NCBI RefSeq assembly: GCF_000828615.1
Contig: NZ_AP012273.1
Span: forward strand, 1,054,001 to 1,118,000
Direction of reading: 5' to 3'
Source: Thiolapillus brandeum
Lineage (GTDB): Bacteria > Pseudomonadota > Gammaproteobacteria > Chromatiales > Chromatiaceae
Length of the DNA stretch: 64,000 nucleotides
Shown: one piece after another, positions 35,682-47,016 of the stretch
How the letters are laid out: every line of letters starts with the position of its first letter
Position numbering within the stretch: position 1 is the first letter of the stretch
Program-made: the position numbers and the translations under genes
Notes under the pieces: model-generated
What the model was told of the DNA's origin: nothing
What the model saw: only the letters and a program-made list of their open reading frames with translations
The model's database searches: none

Positions 35682-36077
35682 TCAGTTTTTTGGGTCCAGA
35701 TCATTCAGCTCTCTGTCCAGTTGATAGCGGTCTGAAGTTACATAAGCTTCCAGACGGCTGAGTTTGCGTTCCAGTTTGCGGAAGCGGTAACGGGCATCGG
35801 CCATGGTGTCCTTTGGTGATTTCCGGTAACGCCGCCAGTACTGTTCCTCTGCTTTGTCATCATATAGGTCTTTGGGCTTTTTCGGCAGCCAAAAAGCGGC
35901 AGCAATGTACAGGGCCACCGTAGCCACTGTAAAAAGAACGGCGGCGATGATGGTGGCGACACGCACGGCATCCACGTTCCAGGAGAAATAATCGGCGATG
36001 CCAGCGCATACGCCGGCAATCTTCGCATTCTTGGGATCACGATAGAGTTTGTTGTGGCAACCTGGGTCGCAGCTCAT
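35682..36077 (-). CDS. pspC: PspC-domain protein
   Basis: 131 residues. The PspC domain is at residues ~10-70: KLYRDPKNAKIAGVCAGIADYF then a membrane helix (VATIIAAVLFTVATVALYIAAAFWL). A charged C-terminal region with a predicted helix (FRKLERKLSRLEAYV) resembles the second half of PspC, which binds PspA/PspB. In the phage-shock system PspB-PspC sense membrane stress and release PspF from PspA. It overlaps the upstream pspB-like gene by 4 bp. Confidence 0.9.
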   Translation of the reverse strand: MSCDPGCHNKLYRDPKNAKIAGVCAGIADYFSWNVDAVRVATIIAAVLFTVATVALYIAAAFWLPKKPKDLYDDKAEEQYWRRYRKSPKDTMADARYRFRKLERKLSRLEAYVTSDRYQLDRELNDLDPKN

Positions 36078-36322
36078 GATTTATGCCTCCAGCCAGGAGC
36101 TTCCCGGTCGAGTATGGTTTCCAGCGATTCCACCCGCCGTTCCAGCTTTTCTGACAGCTGCCACAACTCTGCCAGGGTTTCCTCGTCAGCCTTGGACAAT
36201 GCCTTGCTGGCGCGGGACTTGTACCAATAATGAAGGCTCAGCCACAAAGGTACGATAATCACCATGAAGATGATGGGCAGGGCCAGCAGGGCATCGAAAT
36301 CAATATCAGCGTCCACGTTCAT
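36074..36322 (-). CDS. pspB: PspB-like envelope-stress protein (first copy next to pspC)
   Basis: 82 residues: a single N-terminal membrane helix (ALLALPIIFMVIIVPLWLSL) followed by a cytoplasmic coiled coil ending in ELWQLSEKLERRVESLETILDREAPGWR, the PspB pattern including the terminal LDxEAPxWR. It overlaps both neighbours by 4 bp. With PspC it forms the membrane sensor of the phage-shock response. Confidence 0.85.
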   Translation of the reverse strand: MNVDADIDFDALLALPIIFMVIIVPLWLSLHYWYKSRASKALSKADEETLAELWQLSEKLERRVESLETILDREAPGWRHKS

Positions 36323-36549
36323 TCCTCTTTGTCCAGATCGCGGAACTGCTGCTTGAGGTCGTAGTCTTCGTCAGTGACGATGCGTTCCAGTATGCGGATG
36401 CGCTTTTCAAGTTCGGCAATATGCTTTTCCATATGGCGGCGTTCCTTGCTGGATGCTTCGAGGTCACCACGGCTGTCGAAATAGTGTTTGATGACGCCGC
36501 CGAGAATGCCAAGGGCGACGATGATGACGACCATCTCGAATGGATTCAT
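36319..36549 (-). CDS. Second PspB-like small membrane protein
   Basis: 76 residues: an N-terminal membrane helix (MVVIIVALGILGGVIKHYF) and a heptad-like coiled coil (HMEKHIAELEKRIRILERIV) ending in DEDYDLKQQFRDL. Organisation and size resemble PspB, but the C-terminal end differs and it is a separate gene between pspA and pspB. It may be a PspD-like or duplicated PspB subunit. Overlaps pspB by 4 bp. Confidence 0.8.
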   Translation of the reverse strand: MNPFEMVVIIVALGILGGVIKHYFDSRGDLEASSKERRHMEKHIAELEKRIRILERIVTDEDYDLKQQFRDLDKEE

Positions 36550-36571
36550 GGGATTCTATCCTCTGTTGGGG

Positions 36572-37240
36572 TTATTGTTTGTCTTCTGACAGGCGGGACT
36601 TCAGCTTGCTCAGCTCATCTTCGATTATATCCTCTGCTTCCAGTTCGGCGAACTGATCGTGCAGGCTGGGGTCACGGCCAATATCATAGGCTTCAACCTT
36701 GCCTTCCATGTGTTCCATTTTCTGTTCTACCGTTTCGAAGCGGGACAAGGCATCGTCGATACGGGAATCGTGCAGTTTTTCCCGGGTGCGCAGACGGCCT
36801 GAGACCGTGTTGTGTTTCATCATCATGGTTTTGTGCCGGGCTTTGGCGTCATCCAGTTTCTTTTGCAACTTGCCTGTGTCCTGGTTCAGTTGGAGCAACT
36901 GGCTTTCCAGTATCTCCAGTTCCTTGTCCATACTGGCCACGGCATTTTCCAGGCTGTGTTTTTCTTTGAGAGCGGCTCTGGCCAGGTCTTCCCGTTCCTT
37001 GGACAGGGCCAGTTCGGCCTTGCGCTGCCATTCTCTTATCTCATGCTGCATCTGATCCATGCGGCGCTGCAGTTTTTTCTTCTCTGCGATGGTGCGCGCC
37101 GCATCAGAGCGCACTTCCACCAGGGTGTCTTCCATTTCCTGGATAACCAGGCGGATGATCTTCTCCGGGTTTTCTGCCTTGTCCAGCATGGCGGTGATAT
37201 TGGAATTGATGATGTCGTGTAATCTGCTGAAGATGCCCAT
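36572..37240 (-). CDS. pspA: Phage shock protein A
   Basis: 222-residue PspA/IM30 (ESCRT-III-related) protein. An amphipathic N-terminus (MGIFSRLHDIINSNITAMLD) binds damaged membrane, and the rest is a long coiled coil (for example ALSKEREDLARAALKEKHSL and LQKKLDDAKARHKTMMMKH). PspA both stabilises membranes and inhibits PspF, which is encoded divergently at 37851. Length matches the E. coli protein (222). Confidence 0.95.
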   Translation of the reverse strand: MGIFSRLHDIINSNITAMLDKAENPEKIIRLVIQEMEDTLVEVRSDAARTIAEKKKLQRRMDQMQHEIREWQRKAELALSKEREDLARAALKEKHSLENAVASMDKELEILESQLLQLNQDTGKLQKKLDDAKARHKTMMMKHNTVSGRLRTREKLHDSRIDDALSRFETVEQKMEHMEGKVEAYDIGRDPSLHDQFAELEAEDIIEDELSKLKSRLSEDKQ

Positions 37241-37310
37241 GTCTCGTGTTCCTCTGAATCAGTCGTTTAATTGAGCCATATCTGTATTTGATAGCAGGCT
37301 GCTCAGGGAA

Positions 37311-37640
37311 TTATCCCTGCTGTTCGGAAGTCCCCGGCTTCATGGATGGATTTTTTTTTTCATCCAGAGCCATGATGCCCTGTGTGCATTTGATGTTGGT
37401 GGCGGTCTCCGGGGCAAATGCCTGTTCCGCGAGTTGTTGTGCCATCTGCCGGGTCACTTGCTGGTTCCAGTGGGTATTGTGAACCAGGTTGCTGCTCATG
37501 GCTTCGAGGGCAGCATTTCCCTGAGCAAGAATCTCGTTTTTCAGGGTCTCCTGCCCGTCTGCTGCAACCGCAGCAGCAGGAGCCAGGACCGCAATAATTC
37601 CCGCAAGGACCAGGGTTTTTACTGTTTTGGTGTTTTTCAT
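37311..37640 (-). CDS. Small secreted protein, first gene of the psp transcript
   Basis: 109 residues from the ATG at 37640, preceded by AAAGGAGA. The signal peptide is strong (LVLAGIIAVLAPAAAVAA). The mature part (~85 residues) is helical with two Gln/Asn-rich stretches (NTHWNQQVTRQMAQQLAEQ), a single Cys (IKCTQGIM) and a Lys/Pro tail. No family is recognised. It is the first gene after the sigma-54-type promoter and 70 bp before pspA, so it is probably induced with the phage-shock genes, acting in the periplasm. Confidence 0.75.
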   Translation of the reverse strand: MKNTKTVKTLVLAGIIAVLAPAAAVAADGQETLKNEILAQGNAALEAMSSNLVHNTHWNQQVTRQMAQQLAEQAFAPETATNIKCTQGIMALDEKKNPSMKPGTSEQQG

Positions 37641-37690
37641 TTCCTTTCTCCTTTGGTGAAAGTGTTGTTTCGTTTGTGTGGTGAATACCA

Positions 37691-37706
37691 TTCACGAACC
37701 GTGCCA
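37691..37706 (-). promoter_or_regulatory. Sigma-54-type (-24/-12) promoter of the psp operon
   Basis: On the minus strand TGGCACGGTTCGTGAA gives a perfect -24 element (TGGCACG) and a degenerate -12 element (GTGAA against TTGCA). It lies about 50 bp upstream of the first psp-transcript ATG. The 100-bp AT-rich stretch upstream (37730-37845), rich in TTAATAA-type motifs, is the expected place for PspF and IHF sites and for the divergent pspF promoter. The combination with an adjacent PspF gene supports it strongly. Confidence 0.7.
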
Positions 37707-37850
37707 TATTTCGAGAAAAACCCCTAAGCAGATGTTAATAAAAGAGAAATATCCTGTTCCCCTGTTTTTTGTTTTCAATTAATAATGATTAATAACATCA
37801 AAAAGTAATAAAAAACCACAAATATAGATAAAAACGGCTATTATCGTGAC

Positions 37851-38879
37851 ATGGCTGAACATCAGAAACTTATTGGCCAGTCATCAGCATTTCTGGAAAC
37901 CCTGGAAAGAATTTCCATGGTGGCTCCTCTTTCCAAGCCGGTTTTGATTATTGGTGAGCGGGGTACAGGCAAGGAAATGATGGTGGAGCGCCTGCACTTT
38001 CTATCCAGTCGTTGGGAAAACGTGCTGGTGAAGGTCAACTGTGCGGCTTTGCCGGAGAACCTGTTGGAGTCCGAGTTGTTTGGTTATGAGGCAGGTGCAT
38101 TCACTGGAGCGGGAAAACGCCATGTCGGCCGTTTCGAACGTGCCCACCATGGCACGCTGTTTCTTGATGAAATTGCCAGCATGTCACTGCGATTGCAGGA
38201 GAAATTGTTGCGGGTCATCGAATATGGTGAATTCGAGCGGGTGGGGGGTGATGCCACCCTGACTGTGGATGTGCGGGTGGTAGGCGCGGCGAACGTGGAC
38301 TTGCCTGCCATGGCTGACAGGGGAGAGTTTCGTGCGGATCTTTTGGACCGGCTGAGTTTTGACGTCATTACACTGCCTCCTTTGCGGTATCGAAAGGAGG
38401 ATATTCCTTTGCTGGCGGAGCATTTTGCCCTGGGTATGACCCGGGAACTGCAACGGCCGTTTTTCGCCGGATTCACAGAGCAGGGTCTGGAGCAGATGCA
38501 GGCTTACCCATGGCCGGGGAATATCCGGGAGCTGAAAAATGTTGTCGAACGGGCGGTCTATCGGACTGTTGCTGATGAACCCGTCAGTGAATTTGAGTTC
38601 AATCCTTTTGCTTCGCCCTGGCAGCCGGTTGCCGGGGTTGAAGTAGACGAACTGCCCGAAGCGGATAGTGCTCCCCCGGTTGTTCCGGAACAACACATCT
38701 CCAGGATGAATCTGCCGGTGGATCTAAAGGCCCATATAAGGGAATATGAGCAGGATATCCTGCGAAAATCCCTTGAATCCAATCGCTTCAATCAGCGGCG
38801 CACGGCCCGGGCTTTGGGGCTTACGTATGCCCAGCTGCGCGGTTATCTGAAAAAATACGGAATATCGGTAAAGCATTGA
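37851..38879 (+). CDS. pspF: Phage shock operon transcriptional activator PspF
   Basis: 342-residue sigma-54 activator lacking an N-terminal receiver or sensor domain, as in PspF. AAA+ motifs: Walker A GERGTGKE (35-42), the sigma-54 contact loop GAFTGA (82-87), Walker B GTLFLDE (101-107), and an arginine-rich RADLLDRL. The C-terminal Fis-type helix-turn-helix is NQRRTARALGLTYAQLRGYL. The stretch between the two (residues ~240-295) is longer than in E. coli PspF. It is divergent from the psp genes it should activate. Confidence 0.94.
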   Translation: MAEHQKLIGQSSAFLETLERISMVAPLSKPVLIIGERGTGKEMMVERLHFLSSRWENVLVKVNCAALPENLLESELFGYEAGAFTGAGKRHVGRFERAHHGTLFLDEIASMSLRLQEKLLRVIEYGEFERVGGDATLTVDVRVVGAANVDLPAMADRGEFRADLLDRLSFDVITLPPLRYRKEDIPLLAEHFALGMTRELQRPFFAGFTEQGLEQMQAYPWPGNIRELKNVVERAVYRTVADEPVSEFEFNPFASPWQPVAGVEVDELPEADSAPPVVPEQHISRMNLPVDLKAHIREYEQDILRKSLESNRFNQRRTARALGLTYAQLRGYLKKYGISVKH

Positions 38880-41740: not shown

Positions 41741-42940
41741 GTGAAAAGCATTGAAGCCGGGAACAATCTATTGCTGGGAGTGACCGGTGGAATTGCCGCT
41801 TATAAAAGCGTGGAACTGGCCAGGTTGTTTGTCAAAGGGGGGGTCAATGTCCGTGTGGTTATGACTGAGGCGGCAACCCGGTTCATCGATCCGATGACTT
41901 TTCAAGCGGTCACTGGTGAGGCTGTGCAGGTTCGTATGTTCGATCAGGCTCATGAGGCCGCCATGGGGCATATCGAATTGGCCCGTTGGGCGGATCACCT
42001 TCTCATAGCGCCCGCCAGCGCGGATTTTCTGGCGCGTATGGCGAATGGTCTGGCGGATGACCTTCTTGCCACTTTGTGTCTGGCTTGCCCGGCACCGGTG
42101 AGTGTGGCTCCGGCAATGAATGTACACATGTGGGAGCATGCCGCCACGCAAAACAATATATCGCTGTTGGCTGATCGGGGCGTGCGGTTGCTGGGACCAG
42201 CTTCCGGTGAGCAGGCTTGCGGTGATAGTGGTCCGGGACGGATGCTGGAAGCTGCTGAAATCGTTTCTGCCATGCTGTATTCTTCGAATACCGGGCTTTT
42301 TGCCGGGCAGAAAGTTGTGGTTACGGCAGGTCCTACACGTGAAGCCGTTGATCCGGTGCGCTTCATCAGCAACAGAAGTTCTGGAAAGATGGGGTTTGCT
42401 CTGGCGGAAGCTTTTGCTGCGGAAGGTGCAAAGGTGGTGCTGGTCTCCGGCCCGGTCAATATGGCTACTCCTGCCGGTGTGCAGCGTGTTGATGTGGTAT
42501 CCGCCTTGCAGATGCATGAAGCAGTATTTGATCATCTGCCCGGCACTGATGTATTTGCCGGTTGTGCCGCCGTCGCTGACTATCGTCCCGGAAACCCACA
42601 ACAACAGAAGATCAAGAAAGCTGAACAACAGCTGGAACTGACTCTGGTGAAGAACCCGGACATACTGGCGGAAGTGGCCGCACTCGACGATGGTCCTTTT
42701 ACTCTCGGATTTGCTGCCGAGACCCGGAAGCTGGCGGAGAATGCCAGAATCAAACTGGTCAGGAAGAGTGTCGATATGATTGCGGCAAATCTGGTCGGGG
42801 AAAACCGGGGCTTTGACATGGAGGGCAATGCCTTGTTGGTATTGTGGTCGGATGGCGAGACAGAGTTGCCCATGCAGAGTAAAAAAAGTCTGGCAAGGGA
42901 GCTCATCCAGGTAGTGGCGGAACAGCAGGTTCGGAAATAA
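41741..42940 (+). CDS. coaBC: Bifunctional phosphopantothenoylcysteine decarboxylase / phosphopantothenate-cysteine ligase
   Basis: CoaBC catalyses two steps of coenzyme A synthesis. 399 residues from a GTG. The N-terminal flavin-dependent CoaC half shows LLGVTGGIAAYKSVELAR, WADHLLIAPASADFLARMA, the APAMNVHMW motif and the active-site Cys in GEQACGDSGPGRM. The CoaB half shows VVVTAGPTREAVDPVRFISN, SSGKMGFALAEA and CAAVADYRP. The coaBC-algC-argB-slmA run is similar to that of pseudomonads. Confidence 0.94.
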   Translation: MKSIEAGNNLLLGVTGGIAAYKSVELARLFVKGGVNVRVVMTEAATRFIDPMTFQAVTGEAVQVRMFDQAHEAAMGHIELARWADHLLIAPASADFLARMANGLADDLLATLCLACPAPVSVAPAMNVHMWEHAATQNNISLLADRGVRLLGPASGEQACGDSGPGRMLEAAEIVSAMLYSSNTGLFAGQKVVVTAGPTREAVDPVRFISNRSSGKMGFALAEAFAAEGAKVVLVSGPVNMATPAGVQRVDVVSALQMHEAVFDHLPGTDVFAGCAAVADYRPGNPQQQKIKKAEQQLELTLVKNPDILAEVAALDDGPFTLGFAAETRKLAENARIKLVRKSVDMIAANLVGENRGFDMEGNALLVLWSDGETELPMQSKKSLARELIQVVAEQQVRK

Positions 42941-42967
42941 TTTGTTCAGGGCTTCCCTAGGGGGGGA

Positions 42968-45502
42968 ATGCATGAAAAGGGAGAATGGAAAATGCTAGGA
43001 AAAAAGAAGAAGGCGGAGACGGCGCCAGAGATGGATAGCCCTCAACCTAAACCCCAGCCTCAGCCTCAGCCTGGAGGCGGTAAACCACACACCATCTTTC
43101 ACTATTTTGTTCCAGTGCTGATTATTGCAGCGGTGGCGGTATCCGGTCTAGTGGTCGGACAGAGCTGGTTGAGTGAACGTTATGCCGCCGCCAAGTTGCA
43201 GGAGGCCGCAAAGTTTGTAGCAGTGACCATGCAGCGCTATGTGTCTTCTGTTGCTGCGGGGAAGAAGGAGTTGATCAAGGTGATTGCCGACTCGGCTCTG
43301 GTTCACCAGGCCTTGGCCGGTGATGACAAAGATCTCATGGAGGCAGACCGGGCATTACAGAAGAAATTGCCGGAGGCCGCATGGGTGCGTTTGCTTCCAG
43401 CCAGAGGCTGGGATGATGAAAAGATTCAAAAGACACTCATGGGAAGTTTTGCCGCAGCAGAAATGTATCAGCAGGTTCGTGAACATGGGAAAGTGGTTCC
43501 CGTTGAAGCGCTGAAGGATTCCAATGGGAAGCAGTATTTTTTGTTGGCGGTACCCGTCAATCAAGGAGGAAACCTCAAGGGTGTCCTGTTTGCAGGATTT
43601 CCCATGCGGCTTATTTCCGCAGGGTTACAGGGGTTTGAATCCGAGAATATGAGCCTGGTTCTTGAGCAGGGCAAGGGGCTGCAGTTGTTTACTGTGGGTT
43701 CCTCTGGAATAGCCCTTGATCAGTCCGAGAACCTGCCAGTGGATGGAACTCTGTGGCATATCCGCTATTCCACTGGCGGTATTGTCGGTTTGTCTGTACC
43801 CCTCCTGGTGGGGCTTGCTATTGGCAGCATTGTATTGTTGCTGCTGGCCATATATTGGGCTTACCAGCGTTTACGGCGTGATTACAGCGCGGATATGGGG
43901 ATGATGGTCGCACTTGTGGATGCCACGCTGAAAAGAAAGGGGAGTGTTTCCCAACTGCCACGCCTGGTCGAATCCCAACCTGCAGTGGAGATACTCACGC
44001 GATATGCCCAGGCAACCCGGACGGCAGCAATCGCTGCCGAACACAAAGACAATAAAGCCGGTCAGCCAAGCATCGTAGCGAGCGACCTGGAGGAACCTTC
44101 TGCTGATGAGCCCATGTGCATCCCTGCTGAGCAGCTTCCCGAATCCTTGTTCCGTTCCAGTCTGATCCGTGGCCGCAGCGGCATGGATATCGATGAGGAA
44201 AAGGCCCAGGCCATTGGTCTGGTGTTGGGCAGTATGGTGCAGGAAACAGGAGCCACCAGCATCTATGTCGGGCGTGACAACCGGCCCGGTAGCGATGCTT
44301 ACTCCGCTTCGCTGATTGCGGGCATACTGGCCTCTGGTTGTGACGCTACCGATGTGGGAATGGTTCCCACTCCGTTGTTGTCCTTTGCAGCCAGTGTGTC
44401 AGGAACGGGGTCGGCCGTTATGGTCACAGGCGGACACAATGCCCCGGACTTCAACGGGTTCAAGATCATTCTGGAAGGCAAGCCAATTTCCGATGAGCAG
44501 CTGTCGGAGCTGCGAAGCCGTCTTGTGAGCGGGGAATCCAGGCGCGGCGTTGGTGAGTTGGAAAGCCGTGAGTTGAGCAGCGAATATATACGTGCTCTTT
44601 CAGAAGACGTTCAACTTATTGAGAGCTTAAAAGTGGTGCTCGACTGTGGCAATGGAGTCACGGGTTCCCTGGCCACACGAGCGCTGGAAACTCTGGGTTG
44701 TGAAGTGATACCGATCTTCTGCGAATCGGATGGCAGCTATCCCAATCATCCTGCTGACCCTTCAAACCCGCAAAATATGGCTGCCTTGAGCGCAGAAGTG
44801 CAGGCTAAAGGCGCGGATATGGGATTGGCTCTGGACGTTGATGGTGATGCCCTTGCTGTCGTCGATGAGAAGGGACAACTGGTGTCAACAGATCAACTGA
44901 TTATGATGCTGGCAGTGGATATCATCCGCCGTCATCCTGGAGCGGACATCATTTATGACGTTGCCAGTAGTGCCAGCCTGGCGGCAACCATTCTCGCCAA
45001 TGGCGGGCGTCCCATTATGTGGAAAACCGGGCACGGAAACATGAGGGAGAAGCTGGAAGAGACTGGAGGCCTGCTGGCGGGGGAGCAGTCCGGTCATATC
45101 TATATCAAAGAACGTTGGTATGGCTTTGATGATGGAGTGTATGCTGCTGCGCGGTTGATGGAGATCCTGTCCATTGAGGCGGTTCCGGTTTCCAGCGCTT
45201 TTGCCGAGTATGCGCCAGCACTGGCCACCCCCCTGATAAAGCTTGAAACGCCGCAGGGTAAGGATGATCAGGTCGTTGAGTATTTTCGCAGTAAAGGCAA
45301 TTTCTCTGATGCTGATATCGTGGATATGGATGGTCTGCGGGTGGAATACTCTGAAGCCTGGGGGCTGATTCGCGCCTCCAATACCGAATCTGCCCTGGTG
45401 TTCCGTTTCGAGGCAAGCAGCAATGAGGCATTGAGCCGGATACAGGATCAGTTCCGCGCCCTGCTGAAGGAAGCTGCTCCGGAACTGCCCGCACCTTTTT
45501 GA
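42968..45502 (+). CDS. algC: AlgC-like phosphohexomutase homologue fused to membrane sensor-like domain; active site altered
   Basis: 844 residues. A Pro/Gln linker (PKPQPQPQPQP) precedes a membrane helix (FVPVLIIAAVAVSGLVVG), a ~210-residue periplasmic region, a second helix (IVGLSVPLLVGLAIGSIVLL) and, from about residue 390, a phosphomannomutase/phosphoglucomutase fold. Long AlgC forms with such N-termini are known. Here key residues differ from Pseudomonas AlgC: the phosphoserine loop TGSHN reads TGGHN (G489), the metal loop DGDGDR reads DVDGDA (623-628), the DVK Lys is A666, and FRAYDIRG reads FRSSLIRG (395-402). Retained are GEQSGH, KERWYGFDDG and RASNT. It may be inactive or regulatory. 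ATG at 42992 with a better GGGAG site is an alternative start. Confidence 0.85.
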   Translation: MHEKGEWKMLGKKKKAETAPEMDSPQPKPQPQPQPGGGKPHTIFHYFVPVLIIAAVAVSGLVVGQSWLSERYAAAKLQEAAKFVAVTMQRYVSSVAAGKKELIKVIADSALVHQALAGDDKDLMEADRALQKKLPEAAWVRLLPARGWDDEKIQKTLMGSFAAAEMYQQVREHGKVVPVEALKDSNGKQYFLLAVPVNQGGNLKGVLFAGFPMRLISAGLQGFESENMSLVLEQGKGLQLFTVGSSGIALDQSENLPVDGTLWHIRYSTGGIVGLSVPLLVGLAIGSIVLLLLAIYWAYQRLRRDYSADMGMMVALVDATLKRKGSVSQLPRLVESQPAVEILTRYAQATRTAAIAAEHKDNKAGQPSIVASDLEEPSADEPMCIPAEQLPESLFRSSLIRGRSGMDIDEEKAQAIGLVLGSMVQETGATSIYVGRDNRPGSDAYSASLIAGILASGCDATDVGMVPTPLLSFAASVSGTGSAVMVTGGHNAPDFNGFKIILEGKPISDEQLSELRSRLVSGESRRGVGELESRELSSEYIRALSEDVQLIESLKVVLDCGNGVTGSLATRALETLGCEVIPIFCESDGSYPNHPADPSNPQNMAALSAEVQAKGADMGLALDVDGDALAVVDEKGQLVSTDQLIMMLAVDIIRRHPGADIIYDVASSASLAATILANGGRPIMWKTGHGNMREKLEETGGLLAGEQSGHIYIKERWYGFDDGVYAAARLMEILSIEAVPVSSAFAEYAPALATPLIKLETPQGKDDQVVEYFRSKGNFSDADIVDMDGLRVEYSEAWGLIRASNTESALVFRFEASSNEALSRIQDQFRALLKEAAPELPAPF

Positions 45503-45535: not shown

Positions 45536-46435
<900 letters not shown>

Positions 46436-46437
46436 TT

Positions 46438-47016
46438 ATGGCGGGTGAACGCAAGCAGGCTATCCTTGAGGCTCTGGCCAGGGAACTGGAAGACCGTCCG
46501 GGTGGCAAGGTCACCACGGCAGGTCTGGCCCGTGCGGTCGGTGTGTCTGAGGCGGCACTGTATCGCCATTTTCCCAGCAAGGCCCGTATGTATGAAGGCC
46601 TGATCAGTTTTGCCGAAGATGGGGTTTTTTCGCGCATCAACCAGATCATGGAAGATGACAAGGAGACCCGTCAACGCTGTGCCCGGGTGCTCTATCTGTT
46701 GCTGGGGTTTGCGGAACGGAATCCTGGAATTGTCAGGCTGCTGTTGGGAGATGCCCTGGTCGGTGAACATGAGCGGCTGCATGAACGCATTCAGGTATTC
46801 TTCGAGCGGCTGCAGACTCAATTCCGGCAGATCTTACGCGAGGCCCGCCTTCGAGAGGATGTGGTTCTGTCCGTGTCTTCAGAGGCGGCTGCCGAAACCC
46901 TGGTCATCTACCTGGAAGGACGCATGCGGCAGTTCCTGCGCACCCGGTTTGCGGTTTCTCCGCTCTCCAACTGGGAAACGGAGTGGCGGCTGATTGACCG
47001 GGGGATGTTCTCCTGA
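46438..47016 (+). CDS. slmA: Nucleoid occlusion factor SlmA
   Basis: 192-residue TetR-fold DNA-binding protein that blocks FtsZ assembly over the nucleoid. The N-terminal helix-turn-helix is VTTAGLARAVGVSEAALYRHFPSKA (residues ~22-46), followed by MYEGLISFAEDGVFSRINQI, the SlmA-specific stretch. Coupled to argB, as in related genomes. Confidence 0.93.
   Translation: MAGERKQAILEALARELEDRPGGKVTTAGLARAVGVSEAALYRHFPSKARMYEGLISFAEDGVFSRINQIMEDDKETRQRCARVLYLLLGFAERNPGIVRLLLGDALVGEHERLHERIQVFFERLQTQFRQILREARLREDVVLSVSSEAAAETLVIYLEGRMRQFLRTRFAVSPLSNWETEWRLIDRGMFS

Follow-up and report, generated by a model that had tools for sequence, protein, structure and literature searches.

A gene in the algC position of Thiolapillus brandeum encodes a protein that joins the fold of phosphomannomutase/phosphoglucomutase (PMM/PGM) to a membrane-anchored N-terminal half, and residues of its active site are replaced. 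Has this protein lost its catalysis, and if so, why has the gene been kept? We considered this question in a window of 64,000 nucleotides (the whole stretch of DNA analyzed), in the genome from which the window comes (3 contigs, completeness 100), in 15 genomes of its genus, and in wider sets of genomes from its family and class.

The gene and its neighborhood

The reading frame of the protein, here called P0001, encodes 844 amino acids with no internal stops (Table 1). The first-pass annotation took the frame at its full extent; the frame is open throughout, but translation probably starts at ATG 42992, downstream of GGGAGA, which gives a protein of 836 amino acids. With coaBC directly 5' of it and argB and the slmA-like gene 3' of it, the gene occupies the place of algC. 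None of the neighbors coaBC, argB and slmA points to a regulated partner.

The gap between coaBC and the mutase frame (window positions 42941-42967) is only 27 bases and contains no dut, and a profile search of the window's genome found no PF00692 dUTPase at E ≤ 0.001. A dUTPase motif lies between coaBC and algC in 16 of 16 named AlgC loci with a detectable coaBC motif. Farther upstream, pspC-, pspA- and pspF-like genes (phage-shock response; named by eye from their translations) are clustered at window positions 35682-38879. A 401-amino-acid open frame antisense to coaBC (window positions 41768-42973, minus strand) looks like a chance shadow frame.

Table 1. Features of the P0001 locus (window coordinates) and the CpsG-like gene (coordinates on locus L035)
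Feature	Position	Strand	Basis or content
coaBC (dfp), upstream neighbor	41741..42940	+	PF04127, PF02441
P0001, dCache-TM-mutase protein, long-form AlgC predicted to be catalytically dead	42968..45502	+	whole ORF, 844 codons
First transmembrane segment (residues 46-64)	43103..43159	+	hydropathy; start of model helix 44-107
Predicted periplasmic dCache sensor core (residues 108-276)	43289..43795	+	fold model, structure matches
Second transmembrane segment (residues 277-295), helix running on to 322	43796..43852	+	hydropathy, model
Cytoplasmic linker (residues 296-386)	43853..44125	+	model; 347-378 pLDDT <50
Phosphohexomutase-fold domains I-IV (residues 391-844)	44138..45499	+	PF02878, PF02879, PF02880, PF00408; Foldseek
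Loop RSSLIR replacing RAYDIR (Y17 and D18 lost, R20 kept)	44153..44170	+	
Codon of G489 (= catalytic Ser108)	44432..44434	+	
Codon of A628 (= Arg247, after metal loop)	44849..44851	+	
Codon of A666 (= Lys285)	44963..44965	+	
argB, downstream neighbor, divergence clock	45536..46435	+	PF00696
slmA-like TetR regulator	46438..47016	+	PF22276, PF00440
CpsG-like second mutase	L035:7685-9043	-	motifs YDVRG, TASHN, DGDYDR, RASNT intact

A retained mutase fold with replaced catalytic residues

All four PGM_PMM Pfam domains score above their cut-offs in the C-terminal 454 residues of P0001. The fold matches P. aeruginosa PMM/PGM with a Foldseek TMt of 0.92, and phmmer aligns P0001 residues 385-844 to residues 4-463 of that enzyme without a gap, so that AlgC numbering is P0001 numbering minus 381. 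Based on fold and descent, we conclude that P0001 belongs to the phosphohexomutase-fold superfamily. P0001 remains below the curated NCBIfam equivalog cut-off (best model NF046027, 387.9 bits versus 600). The first-pass annotation had described a mutase with its fold and flanking motifs intact and its phosphoserine, metal-loop Arg and RAYDIRG residues replaced, and both parts of this description are borne out: GEQSGH, KERWYGFDDG and RASNT are present, and the substitutions are G489 for S108, A628 for R247, A666 for K285, and S398/L399 for Y17/D18. The loop at the phosphoserine position, VMVTGGHNAPDFNGFK, contains no Ser, so no neighboring residue substitutes for S108 and the reading of a lost serine stands.

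We aligned 187 locus rows of AlgC-type mutase domains, 15 from the genus and 172 others. Because the collections overlap, some genomes appear twice among the 172: L018 = L067, L024 = L071 and L033 = L099 are identical (L018 is the G026 protein and L067 that of Sedimenticola sp. HyVt-446), L186/L066 and L217/L068 are probable further repeats, and L207 is the second mutase of G092. S108G, R247A and K285A occur in 15 of 15 genus genomes, which agrees with the earlier judgment that sequencing error does not explain them. In contrast, Arg247 is present in 171 of the 172 other rows and Ser108 in 163, the remainder being 7 Gly, 1 Thr and 1 gap. Arg247 is important for the activity of PMM/PGM.

Much of the rest of the site is retained. 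Of 86 sites that are ≥95% conserved in the 163 active rows, the genus keeps 62, partly keeps 12, and loses 12 (Y17, D18, S60, Y91, S108, G243, R247, G249, K285, A320, P368 and E375). The kept sites include R20, H109 and K118 (15 of 15 genus rows); the metal Asp residues D242 and D244 (15 of 15) and D246 (14 of 15, lost in G002), all three of which P0001 has; H308 (every genus row covering the site); E325 and H329 of the sugar loop (15 of 15); and R421, S423 and T425 of the phosphate-anchor loop (14 of 14 covering rows). S327 of the sugar loop is kept in 12 of 15 and replaced in 3, and N424 of the anchor loop is variable. AlphaFold confidence is <50 at residues 706-709 and 716-718, in or beside the sugar loop. 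The active site of the superfamily is described as four loops (PMC6443537). Read by that scheme, the genus sequences have lost the loop i serine and have an altered loop ii around the three Asp residues, and they largely keep sugar loop iii and phosphate-anchor loop iv.

Not all of the losses carry the same weight. The change of the DVK lysine is real, but as the sign of a dead enzyme for which the first-pass annotation took it, it is weak. In the P. aeruginosa enzyme, K285 and E375, both of which are lost in the genus, contact each other across the domain-4 interface, and K285A retains 10% of kcat/Km and E375A all of it (PMC3369874). We therefore rejected K285A as proof of a dead enzyme and base the case on Ser108 and Arg247. 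In the superfamily as a whole, the phosphoserine has been described as an integral part of the reaction mechanism (PMC5192239). Judging by structure titles among the matches, crystal structures exist for S108 mutants of the P. aeruginosa enzyme, in the case of S108D with Glc-1,6-bisphosphate. It is very improbable that P0001 is an active mutase by an unrecognized route, in which the place of the phosphoserine is taken by another residue (e.g., T487) or by Glc-1,6-bisphosphate as cofactor. Although T487 (T106), two residues ahead of site 108, is kept in the genus, it is equally conserved in active forms and is thus not a compensating change; moreover, the P0001 loop has gained no Ser and R247 has been lost in parallel.

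A second mutase in the same genome

A PF02878 search of the window's genome found three mutase-family proteins: P0001, GlmM (TIGR01455, 610.6 bits, cut-off 447.55) and a CpsG-like protein, for which the best NCBIfam model is CpsG, with 686 bits, below the curated 801. The CpsG-like protein, with its motifs intact (Table 1), is the second mutase for which the first-pass annotation proposed a search, and its genome also has ManC/GMP_PMI and should consequently need mannose 1-phosphate. Of the 15 genus genomes, 14 have a CpsG-like gene (full length with the motifs in 11, and a contig-end fragment in G003, G010 and G011), and none was found in G002 (85% complete). ManC/GMP_PMI was found in 13 of the 15, the window's genome included, and not in G004 or G008 (both 99% complete). 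The pathway argument thus fails in some species, those of G002, G004 and G008.

A CpsG-type second mutase accompanies 17 of 23 dead rows versus 6 of 59 active ones, but a single genus supplies 14 of the 17. We rejected a general tie between catalytic loss and this mutase, since independent pairs give no support and the association is not statistically established family-wide. The redundancy of mutases in general was rejected as a separator as well, since 3-4 PGM_PMM_II matches are common in genomes with intact AlgC too.

On the strand of the CpsG-like gene of the window's genome, a sulfotransferase gene (PF00685, E 1.2e-38) follows, and farther on there is a sub-threshold sulfotransferase match (region L035:3573-7655, which is G000 C1, about 1.735-1.739 Mb). 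These may point to a sulfated surface polysaccharide.

Recurrence of catalytic loss

An AlgC-type match at E ≤ 1e-60 is present in 138 of 210 family genomes and absent from 72, which indicates that AlgC is often dispensable in this family. Several near-complete genomes per genus, e.g., in g80, are without an AlgC-type match. Residue-by-residue examination of 77 of the 138 matching genomes found dead or broken forms in 8 family genomes beyond the genus (G030, G045, G049, G092, G117, G148, G180 and G236); in G236 (g36) the gene is split over two frames and the aligned piece lacks site 108. One dead form in another family (G071, L181) was found among 29 examined class genomes outside the family. 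Eight of these nine dead rows have unbroken frames of 803-1081 amino acids, six with two hydrophobic segments and two with one.

We built a tree from 82 rows after removing the catalytic columns, with L181 and L210 dropped as long branches. The genus is one clade with support of 100/100, and the substitutions that the first-pass annotation proposed to look for across a clade are therefore shared by this one. The dead state requires 7 changes (7-8 across bootstraps), and well-supported branches force at least 6 of them, the genus's own included; a quicker tree that contains L181 and L210 gives 8 changes, only 3 of them forced. The tree is silent on loss versus gain, and the direction of loss is taken from the fact that the surrounding class is active. 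G157, tree neighbor of the dead G030 and from the same genus, keeps Ser108.

Outside the family, Ser108 is kept in 27 of 27 covering rows among 29 low-scoring AlgC-type matches, which were hand-picked, with other low scorers left out, from a class draw of 369 genomes, 280 of them with a match. The tendency to lose it thus seems concentrated in this family. Ser108 is also kept in 80 of 80 named loci, which were chosen for similarity, and in all 5 of the family's short forms that were sampled, one of which has an internal stop; these are too few for a test. The scan of named genomes gave no match above 47% identity, and hence no evident member of the genus.

In the genome of G092, a 462-amino-acid mutase-family protein that is 32% identical to the window's mutase half (L207, G092:C64:1682-3049) coexists with the dead long-form AlgC; a CpsG query at E ≤ 1e-70 missed it. 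The short AlgC-type gene L210 (G168:C1:195400-196800) keeps TASHN but is interrupted by a TAG, perhaps a case of recent decay.

The other dead lineages differ in what they have lost: L151 loses R20, K118 and E325, and L209 loses H308, E325, H329, R421, S423 and T425. Ligand binding is thus not a general rule of dead lineages. These differences also bear on whether P0001 might be an altered rather than a dead enzyme, using the metal Asp residues, H109 and K118 for some other phosphoryl reaction without the phosphoserine, e.g., sugar-bisphosphate turnover. Such a reaction would be consistent with the retention of the three Asp residues and of R20, H109 and K118 in the genus, and a distinct mutase family is known to synthesize Glc-1,6-bisphosphate (PMC9426568). 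Nevertheless, we regard an altered enzyme as improbable, because the phosphoserine is described as integral to the superfamily's mechanism, R247 is lost as well, D246 is gone in G002, and the independent losses damage different parts of the active site, a pattern more in keeping with dispensability than with a single new reaction.

Selection and the shift of constraint

The Gly108 codons of the 15 genus genomes are GGA in 3, GGG in 6, GGT in 3 and GGC in 3, and this use of all four GGN codons indicates that Gly is held by selection. Ser108 is encoded by AGC or AGT in 160 of 163 active rows, from which Gly is one transition away, and Gly was retained afterwards. Identity between mutase halves falls as low as 46% within the genus, so the loss is old. 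For the mutase half, dN/dS values span 0.057-0.123 in the 7 genus pairs with dS <1 and 0.057-0.181 in all 27 genus pairs above 70% identity, for which dS is mostly near or past saturation; no active pair in the set exceeds 70% identity, so these figures stand without a matched active value. Judged by these sequences, the catalytic residues have been lost while purifying selection keeps the gene, and P0001 is in this sense a pseudoenzyme.

Ordinary decay, in which CpsG has replaced the active mutase and algC is becoming a pseudogene, is extremely doubtful as an explanation. A replacement enzyme is present, the G236 gene is split over two frames, and 72 family genomes have no AlgC-type match. 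However, in-frame stops are absent from 15 of 15 genus genomes (G013 is cut by a contig end), dN/dS is 0.06-0.12, 62 of the 86 conserved sites are kept, and a divergence down to 46% identity is too old for a decaying gene. For this genus, the sequences already contradict ordinary decay.

We used ArgB as a clock to compare the two halves of the protein in 14 genus rows and 47 active long-form rows, with pairs that are not independent. At ArgB identity of 0.85-0.90, mutase-half identity is 0.59 in the genus (52 pairs) versus 0.80 in active long forms (83 pairs), and N-terminal-half identity is 0.42 versus 0.48. At ArgB identity of 0.90-1.00, the mutase half is at 0.73 in the genus (38 pairs) versus 0.91 in active forms (22 pairs), and the N-terminal half at 0.59 versus 0.66. 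Pseudomonas, which the named loci include often, is probably the source of many of the close active pairs. These figures indicate that constraint on the enzyme half has loosened, with the sensor half evolving near its normal rate. A tighter constraint on the genus sensor half, suggested by an N-terminal excess at equal mutase-half identity, was rejected because the ArgB clock shows a faster mutase half instead, and per-region counts of conserved sites were discarded as evidence because the groups compared differ in depth.

A faster mutase half is also what would be expected if the mutase fold were a dead scaffold, a structural cytoplasmic module of a dCache receptor that offers a dimerization or docking surface while the old active site is free of ligand. 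Binding residues also go in the independent losses of L209 and L151, and GlmM uses a protein interface to control CdaA (PMC8573169). We consider a scaffold unlikely for P0001, since the genus keeps R20, H109, K118, H308, E325, H329, R421, S423 and T425 in all covering rows and a mere scaffold would need none of them.

A predicted sensor domain in the N-terminal half

About 210 residues separate the hydrophobic segments at 46-64 and 277-295, and a long model helix that starts at residue 44 precedes the sensor core. The model of the sensor core has a pLDDT of 88.5, and its Foldseek and VIA-align matches include KinD, DctB and chemoreceptors. A dCache fold is thus predicted between two transmembrane helices. 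Pfam Cache reached its gathering score in none of 8 N-terminal halves (sub-threshold Cache matches in 4, none in 4). Two hydrophobic N-terminal segments are present by hydropathy in 56 of 80 named AlgC loci. Both the membrane anchor and the role as sensor or regulator that the first-pass annotation had suggested are supported by these segments and fold models.

Proposed function

Genus-wide residue loss, purifying selection, a kept fold with kept binding loops, the prediction of a sensor fold, and an intact second mutase are the computed results to be explained. We think it probable that P0001 is a one-component receptor of the inner membrane, built from a dead enzyme, with catalysis passed to the CpsG-type mutase. 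The predicted periplasmic dCache domain would bind a small molecule, and the second transmembrane helix and the linker would relay the signal to the cytoplasmic phosphohexomutase-fold domain. This domain would no longer be able to transfer phosphate, because the nucleophile Ser108 and Arg247 are gone, and would probably still hold a sugar phosphate by means of the phosphate-anchor loop and the sugar loop. Its output would most likely be protein-protein: it may bind or gate a sugar-nucleotide or polysaccharide synthesis enzyme, or a signaling enzyme, as GlmM does with CdaA. Conversion of Glc6P and Man6P to the 1-phosphates would now be carried out by the soluble CpsG-type mutase encoded elsewhere. 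The lack of activity, the binding of ligands at both ends, and the regulatory output with its target are what we infer; a dCache receptor with a dead mutase output would account for lost catalysis, strong selection, the kept fold and loops, and recurrence in the sensor-fused form.

The repeated loss of catalysis with the sensor-fused form kept suggests that the long form has another selected role. We tentatively extend the proposal, with somewhat less than an even chance of being right, to long-form gammaproteobacterial AlgC in general, which would be a dCache receptor with an active mutase output whose receptor role has repeatedly (at least 6 changes) outlived catalysis; the window protein would then be a new type of one-component receptor with a dead output that reads sugar phosphates. 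If this is true, a periplasmic signal would be coupled to the cytoplasmic hexose phosphate pool. What the AlgC dCache half senses and what the mutase fold reports to are overlooked questions that are testable in laboratory strains. To our knowledge, nearly all work on AlgC, a classic enzyme, has concerned the soluble protein of 463 residues. In CC-licensed PMC text, we found neither a bacterial protein of this kind nor a Cache-mutase fusion described.

Comparison with known systems

P0001 resembles AlgC-type PMM/PGM, including the long form, in gene place (coaBC - (dut) - algC - argB), in its gap-free alignment and four PGM_PMM domains, and in an N-terminal half that in the long form has two hydrophobic segments. 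It differs in the genus-wide loss of Ser108, Arg247, Lys285, Y17 and D18 and in its score below the NCBIfam cut-off. With the dCache sensors KinD, DctB and the chemoreceptors it shares a predicted periplasmic fold between two membrane helices, but these matches are, by title, kinases, chemoreceptors and diguanylate cyclases, whereas the output of P0001 is a mutase fold.

A phosphohexomutase in a regulatory role at the membrane has a precedent. GlmM inhibits the membrane diadenylate cyclase CdaA by binding to it directly (PMC8573169), and regulation of CdaA/DacA by GlmM is also reported in PMC6368335. As in our proposal, a phosphohexomutase acts there as a regulator by binding a signaling enzyme. 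However, GlmM is a separate soluble enzyme that acts on another protein, while in P0001 the mutase fold is fused to the sensor and the serine is lost. PGM5 (aciculin), the inactive phosphoglucomutase of vertebrates, likewise has the mutase fold, with P0001 predicted to be inactive as PGM5 is. Herring PGM5 still binds glucose 1-phosphate (PMC7761743). PGM5 retains the serine of TASH and has been described as a structural protein of muscle (PMC5570346). In contrast, P0001, a bacterial membrane protein with a sensor half, has lost this serine and would be a bacterial counterpart of PGM5 in which the nucleophile itself is missing.
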